A DNA stretch of 64,000 bases. It comes from Pseudomonas synxantha. Its GTDB lineage: Bacteria > Pseudomonadota > Gammaproteobacteria > Pseudomonadales > Pseudomonadaceae. A program made the position numbers and the translations under genes. The DNA is taken from NCBI RefSeq assembly GCF_900105675.1, contig NZ_LT629786.1, positions 3,720,001-3,784,000 on the forward strand, written 5' to 3'. Position 1 is the stretch's first letter. Every line of letters starts with the position of its first letter. This document shows, piece by piece, positions 21,422 through 27,713 of this stretch. The notes below the pieces were generated by a model. The model was not told where the DNA came from. It ran no database searches and saw only the letters and a list, made by a program, of their open reading frames with translations.

Positions 21422-22720
21422 TCACAAACAAAACGCCTTTCCAAATAGCTCTTGCGCGACAACCATTATGTTACGCCAAGAGGCATCAAGTTCGTTTATA
21501 TAAATGAACGAGTGTAGAGATACAGCTGCGATAGCAGGAACCCAAGCCAAAAATCTAAGCGCCCAAAGAGATCGCCCCAACATCCTTTCATTCTTTTTTA
21601 GTCCCCAAATAGCTGATCGCAAATACAGCCTAAGATCTTCAGGATAAATTTCGATCTTTTTTTCATGAGAGGAAAACAATAGCATTCTAGAGTGACAGAT
21701 CCGTTTATACTGCAGTCTCTGTGCTGCAATAGTCTCAGCCATTATAAAAGAAGTGAGTGTAACACCCAGCACTAAAACAGTACTCTCAAACACATTTTCA
21801 GCTTTCACAATGGCAATCAAGACAATTAGCGAAATAGGAATACTCAAAACCTTACCACTAATATCGCTTATTAGCTTTGACAATTGATCCGCAATACTCA
21901 ACTCAGCAGAACCAACTTCCTGCTTAGCCTTATGAAAAGAAAATCCACTTAAATAAGTATCCAGATTATTATTATAAAGCCTTAAAAACTCATCCCACTT
22001 TAAAACTAAAAGCTTAAATCTTTCTCTCGCATCAATTGACTCTTTAGAAAACTCCACAAGCGAAGCTCGGAAAATAGACCTTTCCTTAACAAGATGCGGA
22101 TTCTTATCAAAATTCGACTCTAAAAGGGCAGTAATTAAATTTGAGTTTACGCTACACTTCAACAATTCTAAATCTATATTTGGTTGCAAAGCTATAGTTT
22201 TTGCGCCTTTAGCCCCATCATCCTCAACAAAAATGAGCTTATACTCTTCACCCCTCAACTTTTCATCATGATAATGAGCAAGATCTGCAAGACACATGAT
22301 CAGTTGACAGATGGAATTAAGATTCCCTAAACGGGAATCTAAAAACTCTTCACCTTGAGAACAAACATCTTCATCAATTAGATATATTTCTTTTGGAAGT
22401 TTACCGCGCGCAATTGCCTTGCACTCAAGCAACAACTGCTGGAAGCCTTGATAAACATCAGCCTCGCCAGCGCCACTTAGCTTATAAGTAAATTCAAATC
22501 TTGACCAAACGTCTGGAATCTCGATTGTAGCGGCATCAATTTCTTTTCCATCAATCAAAATCTCATCAAACCGACCAGTTTGTGACGCCACAAGCTCCAA
22601 TACTGCAGGTCCTACCTCCGCATTGAACTGCTCCGCAAGAAAACAGAACGAGCTTTTCGTTTGTAGCTTTGGTTTACCCAAAGCACGATAGGCCTTTGCA
22701 AACCTCACGGAGGAAGCCAT
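21422..22720 (-). CDS. Hypothetical membrane protein, partner of YejK-like protein
   Basis: A 432-residue protein I do not recognise. The first ~285 residues are soluble and acidic-to-mixed. Then come two adjacent membrane segments at about 290-332 (V-L-S-I-P-I-S-L-I-V-L-I-A-I-V and V-L-V-L-G-V-T-L-T-S-F-I-M) and one at about 385-410 (R-F-L-A-W-V-P-A-I-A-A-V-S-L). It starts one base after the stop of the YejK-like gene (TAA-A-ATG), so the two are almost surely co-translated. Codon use is AT-rich, unlike the flanking core genes, which suggests horizontal transfer. The layout (soluble sensor partner plus membrane protein) resembles defence modules with a membrane effector, but that is only inference. 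Confidence 0.8.
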   Translation of the reverse strand: MASSVRFAKAYRALGKPKLQTKSSFCFLAEQFNAEVGPAVLELVASQTGRFDEILIDGKEIDAATIEIPDVWSRFEFTYKLSGAGEADVYQGFQQLLLECKAIARGKLPKEIYLIDEDVCSQGEEFLDSRLGNLNSICQLIMCLADLAHYHDEKLRGEEYKLIFVEDDGAKGAKTIALQPNIDLELLKCSVNSNLITALLESNFDKNPHLVKERSIFRASLVEFSKESIDARERFKLLVLKWDEFLRLYNNNLDTYLSGFSFHKAKQEVGSAELSIADQLSKLISDISGKVLSIPISLIVLIAIVKAENVFESTVLVLGVTLTSFIMAETIAAQRLQYKRICHSRMLLFSSHEKKIEIYPEDLRLYLRSAIWGLKKNERMLGRSLWALRFLAWVPAIAAVSLHSFIYINELDASWRNIMVVAQELFGKAFCL

Positions 22721-22721
22721 T

Positions 22722-23843
22722 TTACTTATTCACCCCTTCATCTTTCTTTTCATTGATGGCAGCACGTATGACTGCTACAGCCTCCTCTGACAAATTATTA
22801 AGTATCAATTTACGATCCTTTTCTAAAAAAAGAATCTCAGAATTGACATCCTCACCTAACGCATCTCGATCAAACTTTAACTGCCAATTTTCGGCCTTAA
22901 AAGAAACATGGGTATATTTTTGCAGCGTTGCTTTGCTGAGCGGAAACTCAACTGGAACCCCTACAGCTTCGCTATTTAAATGTGCTACAAACTCACCAGC
23001 CAAATCATCTGCTTGCCCTTCGTAAGTCGCGGGAAAAAACTGCCTGGCTATAGCTTCAACTTCAGTTAGCTTGACAGAATCACCCGACTCCCTTTTCTTC
23101 TCCAGGTAATGTAACACTTGGTCCTTCATCTCCAATCGACGCGGATAAAGATCCGGCCTTTCTCTAAAAAACTGTGTACTTTCCAAAATTAAGTTTTTAG
23201 TCGCTTGGGAGGAAGCGCTACCGACCATACACCCTAAAGAATTAACAAAATAACCCGCTGCCGAACGACCCGATGTCTGACTTAAGAAACTTAGGTAGTT
23301 CAACTCAAGACGCTCACCTTCATCAGCCGCCACATACTTACCATAACGTTCGAAATTTATTCGCGCAGCTTGATAAAGGCTGTTCAAATCAAGCTCAATC
23401 AATTCCTCCGGCTCTAAATTCTCATTTAGGCGCAGACCGTCTCGCTTTTTAAGCATAGCTATCAAAAAAAACCGACCTTGAGCACTTTCATAGTCTACAA
23501 ACAAAATATATCCGCCAGAAGCAGCTGGCAGTGGTTTTGCAGTCGCGTGCAATTCCCCCATTGCAGATTGCGTCAGCTCCATGAATGACTTTTCTGCAAG
23601 ATCGGGCTGAGAAAAATATGCATGAAAATCTTTCGGATACTCGCTTGCAGTTTTTTTTGCAAAAGTACCATAGTGAGCGTTGTTATTTTTCTTGCCGTAT
23701 ATACCTACTGCACCTTCTATCAACTTTAATACCGCTGGGACAGCTAAATCAAAGACAACATTCCGAATATTAGAATCAAGAATATCTTTATATTGCTCTT
23801 TAACCAGTTCGTGTACTACAGCAAAATTTACTTTCGTTTCCAT
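22722..23843 (-). CDS. Nucleoid-associated protein, YejK/NdpA (NA37) family
   Basis: A 373-residue protein of the 37-kDa nucleoid-associated family. Blocks shared with E. coli YejK include G-G-Y-I-L-F-V-D-Y, L-R-L-N-E-N-L-E-P, L-N-Y-L-S-F-L-S-Q-T-S-G-R and Y-F-V-N-S-L-G-C. It is somewhat longer than YejK (335). AGGAGC lies 6 bp before the ATG. It is the first gene of a two-gene operon with a membrane protein, inside AT-rich accessory DNA, so it is not the housekeeping yejK copy. DNA binding is the family's expected activity; coupling to a membrane partner suggests it may detect foreign or damaged DNA, which is inference. Confidence 0.82.
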   Translation of the reverse strand: METKVNFAVVHELVKEQYKDILDSNIRNVVFDLAVPAVLKLIEGAVGIYGKKNNNAHYGTFAKKTASEYPKDFHAYFSQPDLAEKSFMELTQSAMGELHATAKPLPAASGGYILFVDYESAQGRFFLIAMLKKRDGLRLNENLEPEELIELDLNSLYQAARINFERYGKYVAADEGERLELNYLSFLSQTSGRSAAGYFVNSLGCMVGSASSQATKNLILESTQFFRERPDLYPRRLEMKDQVLHYLEKKRESGDSVKLTEVEAIARQFFPATYEGQADDLAGEFVAHLNSEAVGVPVEFPLSKATLQKYTHVSFKAENWQLKFDRDALGEDVNSEILFLEKDRKLILNNLSEEAVAVIRAAINEKKDEGVNK

Positions 23844-24261: not shown

Positions 24262-24504
24262 ATGACTGGATTATCCCTAAACCTGCCAGAAGACCTATCC
24301 AACTCTTTCGCCGACCTGGACAAAACCAACGGTCAGACAGCGAGCTACCTTGCGATGGACGTTCTTCGCGACTACATCGAACACGAGAAAACGCTGACCG
24401 CCCAAATCGAGCTGGCAGTAAAGGAAGCCAACGAAGGCAAATTCGCCACCGATGACCAAGTGGCGTCCATGCGCGCTAGGTGCTGGAGCCGGAATGCAGG
24501 TTGA
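24262..24504 (+). CDS. RelB/ParD-like antitoxin (ribbon-helix-helix)
   Basis: An 80-residue CopG/ribbon-helix-helix antitoxin: the strand T-G-L-S-L-N-L-P-E-D-L, helices around S-Y-L-A-M-D-V-L-R-D-Y-I-E, and a toxin-binding tail. GAGG lies just upstream of the ATG. It overlaps the following toxin start by 11 bp, the normal operon design for this class. The antitoxin reads through intact, whereas the toxin is frameshifted. It therefore may persist as an orphan antitoxin, or could neutralise related toxins. Confidence 0.8.
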   Translation: MTGLSLNLPEDLSNSFADLDKTNGQTASYLAMDVLRDYIEHEKTLTAQIELAVKEANEGKFATDDQVASMRARCWSRNAG

Positions 24505-24777
24505 GTGGCTTGAAAAAGCACTCAAAAATCTGGAAGACGAAGTGAACTATGTCGCTCTCAAAAATCCAAAAGCCGCTGACGACTTCTCGGATGCCATTTT
24601 CGCCAGCGTCGACAGGCTGGCTCAGCTTCCTTCCATGGGACGTGAAGGTCGGGTGAAACACACCCACGATGGACAGCTCCCAACTGGTCCTATCTGATCC
24701 CGTACAGAGCTCGGGGTGATCGACTGCAGATCCTTGGCGTATTCCACACACGGCAACGGCCTCGTTCGAAGCGGTAA
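24494..24777 (+). pseudogene. RelE/ParE-family toxin, frameshifted
   Basis: Starts M-Q-V-E-W-L-E-K-A-L-K-N-L and runs as a normal RelE/ParE toxin to G-R-E-G-R-V near 24655. It then leaves frame at about 24668 and stops at 24697. In the next frame the family C-terminus continues cleanly (T-A-P-N-W-S-Y-L-I-P-Y-R, then L-Q-I-L-G-V-F-H-T-R) to a TAA at 24777. Restoring one base (CACGATGG read as CACGAATGG) gives a full-length toxin of about 94 residues. The lost C-terminal strands hold the catalytic region, so the toxin is predicted inactive. A sequencing error is the main alternative. Confidence 0.82.
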
Positions 24778-25048
24778 TGCGCGCAAAACTTGCCTCTCCG
24801 ACCCCCAAGATCCATTCGTGATAAGTGGAGGCCAGCCGGGAGAAGTCCTGAAAACAAACCTATCTCATGAAACAGGATTCCGATAAGCTTCACGCAGTAG
24901 AATCGAAACAGTTAATGGCGACGCAGGAAGCAAAGCGACGAGCGCTCAGAACAACAAAGCGTTTGGTGATTATTGATAAACAATGGCGGATTTTAACTCT
25001 ATAAACGGGCTAAAAAACCTCAATAAAATATTCAAGGATGAAAAAATC

Positions 25049-25633
25049 ATGGCAATTCGAACGATACCCAGCAATGGCGCTTGGGATTTAGCAGTAAGCC
25101 TCGACAAACACATTATTCGTTCCGTACCAATTGGCTACAATGATTATGGACACATGCAATTTGACACCGAAAGAACAGACATTGGTGAAGCCGTATTCCA
25201 ACTAAAATATCGCTTTGACTTTACAAAAGTAGAATACATAGCCAATCAAATAATAGCAGCATTAAATAGTCAACCATTCCCGAAAATCGAAGTTGTAATT
25301 CCAATGCCTGCAAGCAAAGTTCGCGCAAAACAACCAGTAACTGAAATCGCCAAAAAAGTGGCCGAATTACTGGGAATTTACTGTAGCGAAGACACTTTAG
25401 AAAAAATAAAACCTACGGGTGCAATGAAGGACCTGGAAACATATGCTGAGCGTTCCGCAGCCCTAGATGGATGCTTCGAAATTCGTGATAAGATCAGCAG
25501 AGGGCCATGGAATGCACTTCTAATAGATGACCTATATGATACTGGCGCATCATTAGAAGCCGCGTGCAATAAACTTAGACAAAACACCAACATCAAAAAC
25601 ATATCTGTCGTCGCCATAACCCGGAGACATTAA
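25049..25633 (+). CDS. ComF-like phosphoribosyltransferase
   Basis: Type-I phosphoribosyltransferase domain protein. The PRPP-binding loop reads L-L-I-D-D-L-Y-D-T-G-A-S-L at about residues 156-168, and V-V-I-P-M-P-A-S precedes it, as in ComF-like enzymes. ATG 25049 is chosen because AAGGA lies 10 bp upstream and related proteins seem to begin here; an in-frame ATG at 24983 would add 22 residues. It runs straight into the SLOG gene (stop followed directly by ATG), so the two are coupled. Codon use is AT-rich. PRTases join a base to PRPP; the partner may act on the same nucleotide pool. No known pathway gene is nearby, which argues against simple purine salvage or competence. Confidence 0.78.
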   Translation: MAIRTIPSNGAWDLAVSLDKHIIRSVPIGYNDYGHMQFDTERTDIGEAVFQLKYRFDFTKVEYIANQIIAALNSQPFPKIEVVIPMPASKVRAKQPVTEIAKKVAELLGIYCSEDTLEKIKPTGAMKDLETYAERSAALDGCFEIRDKISRGPWNALLIDDLYDTGASLEAACNKLRQNTNIKNISVVAITRRH

Positions 25634-26323
25634 ATGTCAAAAGTATTTATTTCTGGCTCCATAAACATCAAAAGCCTTGATGAAAAAGTAAAATCAAGGC
25701 TAAACAATGTTATTGCGTCCGGACTAGACGTTCTAATCGGCGATGCTGGTGGTGTTGACAAATCCGTTCAGCAATACTTCAAGCAACATAATTTTGCTGA
25801 GGTAACTGTATACTGTACTGGTAGTGTCCCAAGAAACAACGACGGTCAATGGCCTGTCGTGAATGTTGAACCACCTGTTAAAACAAAATCCAGAGCCTAT
25901 TTTACGGCCAAAGATTTGAAAATGGCTGACGACTCTGATTTTGGACTTATGATCTGGGATTGCAAGAGCCCCGGAACTTTGAGCAACGTAATAGAATTAC
26001 TTAAGAAAAAGAAGAAGTCTGTTGTTTACGTATCTTCAGAAAAATCGTTCTTCAACATAACCAACACATCAGATCTTAAAAAACTGGTTATGCTGATGGA
26101 TGAAGACGCCCTACTAGAAGCAAACAAAAAAGTATCCCTCGATAAAAAACTCGCGTCACTCGACGAAAACTACCCGGTATCACGTGAAAATGAAAAGCAG
26201 ATAATTTACGACAAAATAAAAGAGCATAGAGATATCATCGCAAAACACGAGTTAGAAATTTTATCCCTGCAGGAAAAACTTGACAAAACTCTTGAACCAA
26301 CTGATGACATGTTCACAAGTTAG
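25634..26323 (+). CDS. SLOG-like Rossmann domain protein
   Basis: A 229-residue protein. The N-terminal ~130 residues look like the SLOG/DprA-LOG nucleotide-binding fold: the first strand K-V-F-I-S-G-S, then L-I-G-D-A-G-G-V-D-K-S with a Gly-rich turn, and D-F-G-L-M-I-W-D followed by P-G-T-L. The C-terminal ~80 residues are charged and likely coiled-coil (I-I-Y-D-K-I-K-E-H-R-D-I-I-A-K). The ATG follows the phosphoribosyltransferase stop directly, with GGAG 8 bp upstream. SLOG domains sense or cleave nucleotide ligands and recur in bacterial conflict systems (established for the superfamily). The specific function of this gene is unknown. Confidence 0.7.
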   Translation: MSKVFISGSINIKSLDEKVKSRLNNVIASGLDVLIGDAGGVDKSVQQYFKQHNFAEVTVYCTGSVPRNNDGQWPVVNVEPPVKTKSRAYFTAKDLKMADDSDFGLMIWDCKSPGTLSNVIELLKKKKKSVVYVSSEKSFFNITNTSDLKKLVMLMDEDALLEANKKVSLDKKLASLDENYPVSRENEKQIIYDKIKEHRDIIAKHELEILSLQEKLDKTLEPTDDMFTS

Positions 26324-26717
26324 AAATCATTCAAAACCGCATGCAAATCGCAGCCACTAACTAACATACTCATGCGATTACGAAGTAGAGCGAATCAAGA
26401 ACGCAAACTTCCACGAATTCGCTCTCTTCATTCAAAAAAAGTATCTTTTATTGAGTTAATTATTCTCTGCGCTCGGGTTGATCGAGATGGTGACGGCGAA
26501 AAGGGATTACGCCCCCACAGGAATATCATAGGGTTTGAACCGCACAACCTCCTCACCATGCCAGTCATTCACCTGCACCATACGCGCCTGTGGACGGGCA
26601 AAAAACGGGGACAGATTATTTAATATTTAGGTCTCGCATCGCACGATCAACACCCAGCCTCCTCCGATCCATTCCTGATAAACTGCCCACCCTTCGCATT
26701 CTCCATCCAAGACTCCA
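26324..26717. other. Island edge with a degraded coding fragment and a GGGGACAGATT motif
   Basis: About 390 bp between the SLOG gene and dusA. On the minus strand, 26507-26626 reads as a coding-like tail (Q-A-R-M-V-Q-V-N-D-W-H-G-E-E-V-V-R-F) ending in a stop, without a proper start; I do not recognise it. Next to it, at about 26605, AACGGGGACAGATTATT resembles a motif often found beside Y1 (REP-associated/IS200-like) transposase genes. A plus-strand frame over the same bases looks spurious. Composition returns to GC-rich at about 26,640. Confidence 0.4.
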
Positions 26718-27713
26718 ATGCCTTCAGCCATAGCTCCACCGCAAGCCCTCTCCCGCCGCTTCTCCGTCGCCCCCATGATGGACTGGACTGACCGCCACTG
26801 CCGGTTCTTCCTACGCCTGCTCTCCAAACACGCCCTGCTCTACACCGAGATGGTCACCACCGGCGCTATCCTCCACGGCGACCACGAGCGCTTCCTGCGC
26901 CACAACGAAGCCGAGCACCCGCTGGCACTGCAATTGGGCGGCAGTGTTCCGGCTGATCTGGCCGCCTGTGCCCGTATGGCCGAGGCCGCAGGCTACGACG
27001 AAGTGAACCTGAACGTCGGCTGCCCCAGCGACCGGGTGCAGAACAACATGATCGGCGCGATCCTCATGGCGCACCCTGCCCTGGTGGCGGACTGTGTGAA
27101 GGCCATGCGCGATGCGGTGTCGATTCCGGTGACGGTAAAGCACCGTATCGGCATCAATGGCCGGGACAGTTATGCCGAGCTGTGTGATTTCGTCGGGACA
27201 GTGAAGGATGCCGGTTGCACCAGTTTTACCGTGCATGCGCGGATTGCGATTCTGGAGGGGCTGTCGCCCAAGGAGAACCGGGACATTCCGCCGTTGCGTT
27301 ATGACGTGGCGGAGCAGTTGAAGCGGGATTTTCCGGGGTTGGAGATTAATCTCAATGGTGGGATCAAGACGTTGGAGCAGTGCCAGGAGCATTTGCAGAC
27401 GTTCGATGGGGTGATGCTGGGGCGGGAGGCTTATCACAATCCGTATCTGTTGGCGGAGGTGGATCAGCGGTTGTTTGGCAGTGAGGCGCCGGTGATTAGT
27501 CGGGCGCAGGTGTTGGTGCAGTTGCGGCCTTATATTGCTGAGCATTTGGCCAGTGGTGGGACGATGCACCATATTACTCGGCATGTGTTGGGGTTGGGTA
27601 CTGGGTTTCCGGGGGCTCGTAAGTTCAGGCAGTTGTTGTCCGTGGATATTCATAAAGCGGCGGATCCGTTGGCGTTGCTGGATCAGGCTGGGGAATTGTT
27701 GGAAGGGCGGTGA
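26718..27713 (+). CDS. dusA: tRNA-dihydrouridine synthase A
   Basis: FMN-dependent enzyme reducing uridine to dihydrouridine at positions 20/20a of tRNA. The 331-residue protein starts with a short variable leader, then the DusA block F-S-V-A-P-M-M-D-W-T-D-R-H-C-R. The catalytic Cys lies in N-V-G-C-P-S-D near residue 102, and V-K-H-R-I-G-I follows. Length is normal. dusA is known as an integration site for prophages and islands in Gram-negative bacteria, and here AT-rich accessory DNA ends directly upstream. The gene itself appears intact. Confidence 0.93.
   Translation: MPSAIAPPQALSRRFSVAPMMDWTDRHCRFFLRLLSKHALLYTEMVTTGAILHGDHERFLRHNEAEHPLALQLGGSVPADLAACARMAEAAGYDEVNLNVGCPSDRVQNNMIGAILMAHPALVADCVKAMRDAVSIPVTVKHRIGINGRDSYAELCDFVGTVKDAGCTSFTVHARIAILEGLSPKENRDIPPLRYDVAEQLKRDFPGLEINLNGGIKTLEQCQEHLQTFDGVMLGREAYHNPYLLAEVDQRLFGSEAPVISRAQVLVQLRPYIAEHLASGGTMHHITRHVLGLGTGFPGARKFRQLLSVDIHKAADPLALLDQAGELLEGR

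Follow-up and report, generated by a model that had tools for sequence, protein, structure and literature searches.

A mobile gene pair encoding a lone ComF-type phosphoribosyltransferase and a SLOG-fold protein in Pseudomonas synxantha, a candidate toxin-antitoxin-type module akin to ShosTA and PsyrTA

Pseudomonas synxantha carries, within a 64,000-nucleotide stretch of contig NZ_LT629786.1 (assembly GCF_900105675.1, positions 3,720,001 to 3,784,000; hereafter the window), two adjoining genes that encode a ComF-type phosphoribosyltransferase (PRTase) and a protein of the SLOG superfamily. By analogy with ShosTA and PsyrTA, this pair is probably a mobile two-gene module of the toxin-antitoxin type, in which the PRTase would act as toxin and the SLOG protein as antitoxin, serving abortive phage defence and/or the stability of the element that carries it. 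The coupling of the two genes, both folds, the conserved phosphoribosyl pyrophosphate (PRPP) loop, the one-sided loss of the PRTase, the constraint on SLOG genes that stand without it (orphans) and the mobility of the pair support this interpretation. A likely role of the pair in biological conflict, suggested in an earlier note on this DNA, is supported.

The two open reading frames (ORFs) lie on the + strand at 24983-25633 (216 aa) and 25634-26323 (229 aa). At their junction, CATTAAATG, the TAA stop of the PRTase is followed on the next base by the ATG of the SLOG gene, a zero gap that confirms the direct stop-start coupling noticed earlier; across genome and viral-contig loci the gap ranges from -4 to +11 nt in 84/84 intact pairs. 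The PRTase probably starts at M23 (25049) and not at 24983, because residues 1-21 are predicted with low confidence (pLDDT <50), this N-terminal stretch is absent from 8/9 aligned relatives and AAGGATG stands directly ahead of the ATG at 25049.

The candidate toxin (25049-25633, open frame from 24983) shows the hallmarks of a type I PRTase, a PRPP loop with two acidic residues and TG: in the loop LLIDDLYDTGAS (25517-25552, + strand) D182, D183 and G188 are each conserved in 49/49 sequences of the family alignment, as is Lys149 (25427-25429). The assignment as ComF-like was upheld by matches to the comF, PsyrT and ShosT models. Among the PADLOC models the best match is PsyrT (6e-16), which covers positions 536-683 of 689, the C-terminal part of that model, and ShosT follows with 3.3e-7, the fold placing the protein with PRTases related to the toxin ShosT. 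Pfam PRTase models reach about 0.05 only. The match to TIGR00201 comF (1.8e-7, 31.3 bits) falls far under the curated cut-off of 233.55, and the gene further differs from comF/comFC in being accessory and paired with SLOG.

For the candidate antitoxin or sensor (25634-26323, + strand), neither Pfam nor PADLOC gave a match at E up to 1; the AlphaFold model (pLDDT 93.2) displays the SLOG Rossmannoid fold. In a Foldseek search of the PDB, ShosA was the best match (structure 8zva, E 1.4e-4), with DprA close behind, and YpsA, LOG and the SLOG domain of ThsA were matched as well, so that the SLOG call survived structural comparison. By sequence, neither protein had a convincing relative in the PDB when searched with phmmer (best E 0.32 and 0.14), and a SLOG relative from Listeria matches the PADLOC ShosA model at 0.0026. 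The GDAGGVD motif of the SLOG domain (25739-25759, + strand) is strongly conserved, G36, D37, A38, G40 and D42 being present in 60/60 sequences, and the same holds for K93 and D94. In LOG proteins the Glu of the motif PGGxGTxxE is catalytic, and two LOG-family proteins of the same genome read CPGGFGTLDE and FPGGAGTAEE. At this place the window family reads KSxGTLSN, with N118 at the Glu position in 60/60 sequences; this comparison was made by eye because hhalign of the SLOG family against the two single LOG proteins returned no usable alignment. Since the Glu position is an invariant Asn, ordinary LOG catalysis looks unlikely. Judging from these residues, a binding role is more likely for the protein than hydrolysis of the LOG type, although a conserved pocket may have some other activity. 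Together with the PRTase neighbour found at most loci, the Asn separates the family from LOG, YpsA and molybdenum cofactor carrier proteins.

The charged C-terminal helix described in the earlier note is present in the model (residues 184-219; 26183-26290, + strand) and does not hold as a family feature, as 78 of 105 scored SLOG proteins end at or before ~200 aa. Twenty reach at least 250 aa; 16 of the 19 genome-derived ones in this group fall under Alphaproteobacteria. Both plasmid members scanned (L006 and L010) carry a helix-turn-helix (HTH) domain, with matches to HTH_37 (1e-19) and to the model 'Probable addiction module antidote protein' (3.3e-20), and the member matching the antidote model is named addiction module antidote in its plasmid record. 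Thus, in some lineages the SLOG core is fused to antitoxin-type DNA-binding parts.

The association of the two genes was followed in a genus survey of 398 Pseudomonas genomes. The PRTase profile found matches in 109 of them at E up to 1e-8. In 20 of these a match reached 72 bits or more; the other 89 contained 36-50-bit matches only (frames of 163-292 aa), which score apart from the window family and were taken as host ComF and dropped. Matches of at least 185 bits occurred in 19/398 genomes, 18 of them full-length, and 17 of these 18 adjoin a SLOG gene. The pairing exceeds chance, and the refuting result named in the earlier note, genes that seldom co-occur, did not arise. A complete SLOG gene was present in 26/398 genomes, with a full PRTase upstream in 17, a 5'-truncated one in 1, remnants in 3 and nothing detectable in the fetched flank in 5; two further genomes have a broken SLOG gene and no family PRTase. 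In this survey, therefore, the presumed antitoxin persists without a full PRTase in 9/26 genomes and the presumed toxin lacks SLOG in 1/18. Such one-sided loss is the pattern expected of a losable toxin whose antidote is retained, which it suggests and does not prove.

A SLOG profile scan of species genomes, a set that overlaps in part with the genus survey, gave 373 relatives, of which the best 80 by E-value were kept. Among these best 80, the position just upstream of SLOG is occupied by a full PRTase in 62, by a broken or partial one in 10 and by none in 8. The claim of asymmetry rests on the genus survey because the best 80 favour intact SLOG genes. On a SLOG tree built by a quick method from 79 rows (the window and 78 of the 80 loci, after L065 and L096 had been dropped as doubtful), 14 changes of the PRTase state are seen, of which starred branches force at least 12; the state shows no clustering, and the changes need not all be losses. 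The pooled ratio of nonsynonymous to synonymous polymorphism (pN/pS) was 0.068 both for 14 comparisons with orphan SLOG genes and for 8 paired ones, the comparisons sharing sequences; from these values, orphans look as constrained as paired genes.

By record title, the best 80 of 373 comprise 73 Pseudomonadota, 2 Acidobacteriota, 2 Myxococcota and one each of Bacillota, Bdellovibrionota and Minisyncoccota, the Minisyncoccota locus lacking a PRTase; several of the 80 are metagenome-assembled genomes (MAGs). Judged by record title, intact pairs are spread over five or more phyla, some of the records being MAGs, and they occur on plasmids, prophages and islands. In 72,556 plasmid records there were 98 SLOG and 61 PRTase matches, of which 55 and 38, respectively, are on plasmids typed as conjugative; the pair is also on the Listeria innocua plasmid pLI100, and in an Enterobacter plasmid an IS3-family element splits the PRTase, leaving SLOG intact. 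Among 29 viral-contig loci, 22 have a full PRTase, 1 a partial one, 1 reaches the contig edge, 1 has none and in 4 the SLOG match is merely weak, while neither protein was matched in the 50,697 records of the GenBank phage collection (E up to 1e-5). In Escherichia coli the pair occurs in 8/5,426 genomes, both genes being present in 8/8; two of the seven chromosomal copies were viewed, and both lie in prophages that we name P2-like, with a VgrG/Pvc8-family gene on one side and ogr on the other.

The mobility of the pair is also visible in the window. Two 16-bp direct repeats, at 24809-24824 and 26666-26681 (+ strand, 15/16 identical), enclose the segment that holds it, 1857 bp from start to start. 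One relative (G017) aligns to window position 24807 and resumes at 26746, another (G004) aligns to 20606 and resumes at 26748, and the pair is absent from this site in both; as G004 aligns only to 20606, the rest of the island is absent there too. Near the junction each has a single diverged copy of the repeat, with 3 mismatches in G017 and 2 in G004. The GC content of the pair is 0.393 vs 0.586 for the window, which, with the repeats and these two relatives, bears out its description as AT-rich accessory DNA. No integrase was recognised in the segment between the repeats. The right repeat ends 36 bp ahead of a gene named dusA by eye, which starts at 26718; published integration falls within the 5' end of dusA (PMC4482086) and in one relative (L207) an integrase ORF upstream of dusA was confirmed. 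An origin of the segment through a dusA integrase is unproved.

In the mechanism proposed, free PRTase would use PRPP either to upset the nucleotide pool or to alter a nucleotide, so that growth would stop. The SLOG protein, encoded directly downstream, would restrain the PRTase, probably by binding, and the HTH fused to it in some lineages could also repress the operon. Phage infection or loss of the element would then free the PRTase, giving abortive defence and/or stability of the element.

Among described systems, the ShosTA/PsyrTA/RqlHI group comes closest. DprA homologues have been reported as antitoxins in shosTA, psyrTA (printed as syrTA) and rqlHI, and a DprA and PRTase system of P2-like phages as guarding against T7 and lambda (PMC9122126). 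ShosT is described as both a PRTase and a pyrophosphatase and as interfering with purine metabolism; ShosA is said to bind DNA, and Gp0.7 of T7 to act as the trigger (reviewed in PMC12593503). For RqlH, toxicity depends on the PRTase domain and is held in check by RqlI (PMC4670107). Like ShosTA, the window pair consists of adjacent genes for a PRTase and a SLOG-superfamily protein, with both solved proteins as top structural matches, and the two E. coli copies viewed share the prophage setting; based on folds and genetics, the pair probably works like ShosTA. On the other hand, solved ShosT chains have 393-424 residues with the PRTase at about 149-401, whereas the window PRTase stands alone. 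The partners also differ: in the four of five ShosT-model loci that were read, three match Pfam DNA_processg_A (312, 321 and 187 aa) and the fourth (348 aa) is a DprA by eye, and the two scanned against PADLOC both match ShosA, whereas the window SLOG matches neither model. Length by itself does not set them apart, since one of these loci (L194) has a DprA partner of just 187 aa. With PsyrTA and RqlHI the window pair shares the PRTase part that aligns to the C-terminus of PsyrT, and it has no RecQ-like helicase. The PsyrT partners in two loci are 452 aa (L195, PsyrA 4e-162) and 463 aa (L196), in contrast to the 229-aa window SLOG, which lacks a PsyrA match. A search with PsyrT gave matches in 99/99 genomes at 1e-30, nearly all to the helicase part only; among the matches listed, just three, in G109 and G125, extend over the full model. 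A further, weak likeness is to retrons of type III-A (PADLOC PRTase_III-A, 0.0094 for the window PRTase and 7.5e-6 for the Listeria relative).

In view of these matches, the claim of an undescribed system was correct in part. A system without any known relative is unsupported, because each half has a match among solved structures, namely ShosT and ShosA; what stands is that the PRTase is lone and its SLOG partner matches no DprA model. No description of a lone PRTase with a non-DprA SLOG was recognised among search listings and passages of open-licence PubMed Central papers. The legend of Fig. 4 in the DefensePredictor report (PMC13092281) defines 'PRTase', and one validated system there may or may not be the window family. 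It is possible, though doubtful, that the pair forms a third and minimal class of PRTase toxin-antitoxin defence, in which a bare SLOG core would bind the PRTase or a nucleotide product, unlike the DNA-repair rescue proposed for ShosA, and the constrained orphan SLOG genes, which have arisen repeatedly, would be kept by hosts as standing antidotes to PRTase elements that come in.

Several observations weigh against the toxin-antitoxin interpretation. The resemblance of the SLOG model to ShosA is modest by TM-score (0.48 by query, with a root-mean-square deviation of 12.1), the window SLOG matches neither ShosA nor PsyrA of PADLOC (E up to 1), and hhalign comparison with the DprA partners of ShosT is weak for the SLOG family (E 0.02, probability 2.3) and modest for the PRTase family against ShosT-like PRTases (E 4e-4, probability 35). 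The PRTase domain of RqlH alone is not toxic (PMC4670107), and the candidate toxin here is a lone PRTase. G025, the sole full-length PRTase without SLOG in the genus survey, keeps 31/33 strongly conserved positions and lacks Lys149. A class survey of 274 genomes found, besides the window's own pair and one additional pair (G506), a genome (G621) that has no SLOG but two PRTase matches, of which the first is the C-terminal part of a 531-aa protein and the second lies at a contig start. In four plasmids viewed (L011, L017, L013 and L016) SLOG relatives have no adjoining PRTase, so a solo SLOG function is possible, and recent losses may mimic constraint on the orphans. Finally, the pair was folded with a one-residue tether from an alignment of 11 in-frame read-through rows (A7). 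A structure search with this model ranked ComF, ShosT and ShosA first; its pTM of 0.73, which comes without interface error and from a tether that may force contact, is suggestive at most, and the interface is not established.

The same toxin and antitoxin could be selected purely because they hold plasmids, prophages and cassettes in place, phage defence playing no part. The conjugative carriers (55/98 SLOG-bearing and 38/61 PRTase-bearing plasmid records), the antidote-type HTH fusion and the lack of matches in the GenBank phage collection would fit such an addiction module. It is nevertheless unlikely to be the whole explanation, in view of the defence models found among neighbouring genes (each in at most 2/143), the DS-1-like operon beside the window pair and the anti-phage activity reported for its structural kin ShosTA (PMC9122126). 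Phage defence and element stability are compatible with each other.

Two further readings fare worse. A ComF-DprA-like pair that handles single-stranded DNA in conjugation or uptake, neither protein being a toxin, is improbable on present evidence; it would not readily explain why SLOG is so often found with no intact PRTase, and the PRTase so rarely with no SLOG, nor the antidote-type HTH. The earlier note had proposed that both proteins together make, exchange or sense a modified nucleotide; making and cleaving such a nucleotide, as a signal or salvage intermediate, was not borne out, given the Asn at the Glu position of the LOG motif (aligned by eye), and appears a remote prospect. Its remark that no salvage or competence gene adjoins the pair was correct as judged by eye in the window, no salvage link for the PRTase having been found, and this too speaks against a salvage intermediate. 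The toxin-antitoxin-type module remains the interpretation that we favour.

The pair is widespread and mobile, and most of the plasmid rows listed name the SLOG gene 'hypothetical protein' and the PRTase gene 'ComF family protein'; toxins may lie hidden under the label 'ComF' on mobile elements. With the PADLOC models of 2023, the window PRTase is picked up only in part and its SLOG partner is missed. A PRTase toxin cut down to two small domains would be a simple test-bed for nucleotide-pool effects and SLOG restraint, and orphan SLOG genes under constraint offer a way to ask if hosts retain antidotes against incoming elements.

Regarding the surroundings in the window, the earlier note missed a defence neighbour. 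The ORFs at 21422-22720 and 22722-23843 (- strand) match the DS-1 anti-phage models (DS1_2, 7.1e-24, and DS1_1, 4.4e-28, also Pfam NA37), below cut-offs, and on these matches 21422-23843 is a probable defence neighbour of the pair; relative G017 lacks the stretch between about 21292 and 24170, that is, the DS-1-like operon. By their name, these models appear to describe the DS-1 of DefensePredictor, whose report gives the defence role of a YejK nucleoid-associated domain as newly validated (PMC13092281). In a wider scan of neighbours, 143 ORFs were taken of 151 picked (seven long and one surplus ORF were left out). At E up to 1e-15 PADLOC matched 123 families, every one in no more than 2 members; 43 control ORFs from the rest of the window matched 22 families, of which 20 occurred in 2 members each, with helicase models predominating. 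The comparison is weak and no rate test, as members with any hit were uncounted and longest-first picking adds spurious frames to both sets. Pfam recognised 4 integrases and 2 resolvases among ordinary genes of the 143.

Some loci deserve separate mention. The SLOG genes without PRTase at L011 (4001-4534) and L017 (4001-4537) are on rhizobial plasmids near DUF2493 and toprim genes, and those at L013 and L016 on cyanobacterial plasmids. Locus L187 (466-2061) encodes a 531-aa protein with the family PRTase as its C-terminal part and an N-terminal part without Pfam assignment, in a genome with no SLOG match. The distant pair from the class survey (L186, 974-3469) adjoins a GmrSD-like restriction gene, and that of an Agrobacterium plasmid (L010, 1-8369) is near a CBASS phospholipase, a VapC toxin and an ImmA/IrrE gene. 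In a gonococcal record (L015, 3435-4549; plasmid-listed, 2.17 Mb) the pair is flanked by a carA-like gene and a carB-like gene (by eye), with three similar ORFs ~280 bp apart upstream. In the window, ParD/ParE-type genes occupy 24262-24697 (+ strand); the ParE frame has 81 aa (Pfam ParE, 1.2e-8 over 53/89 positions) and ends differently from the 94-aa frame of relative G017.
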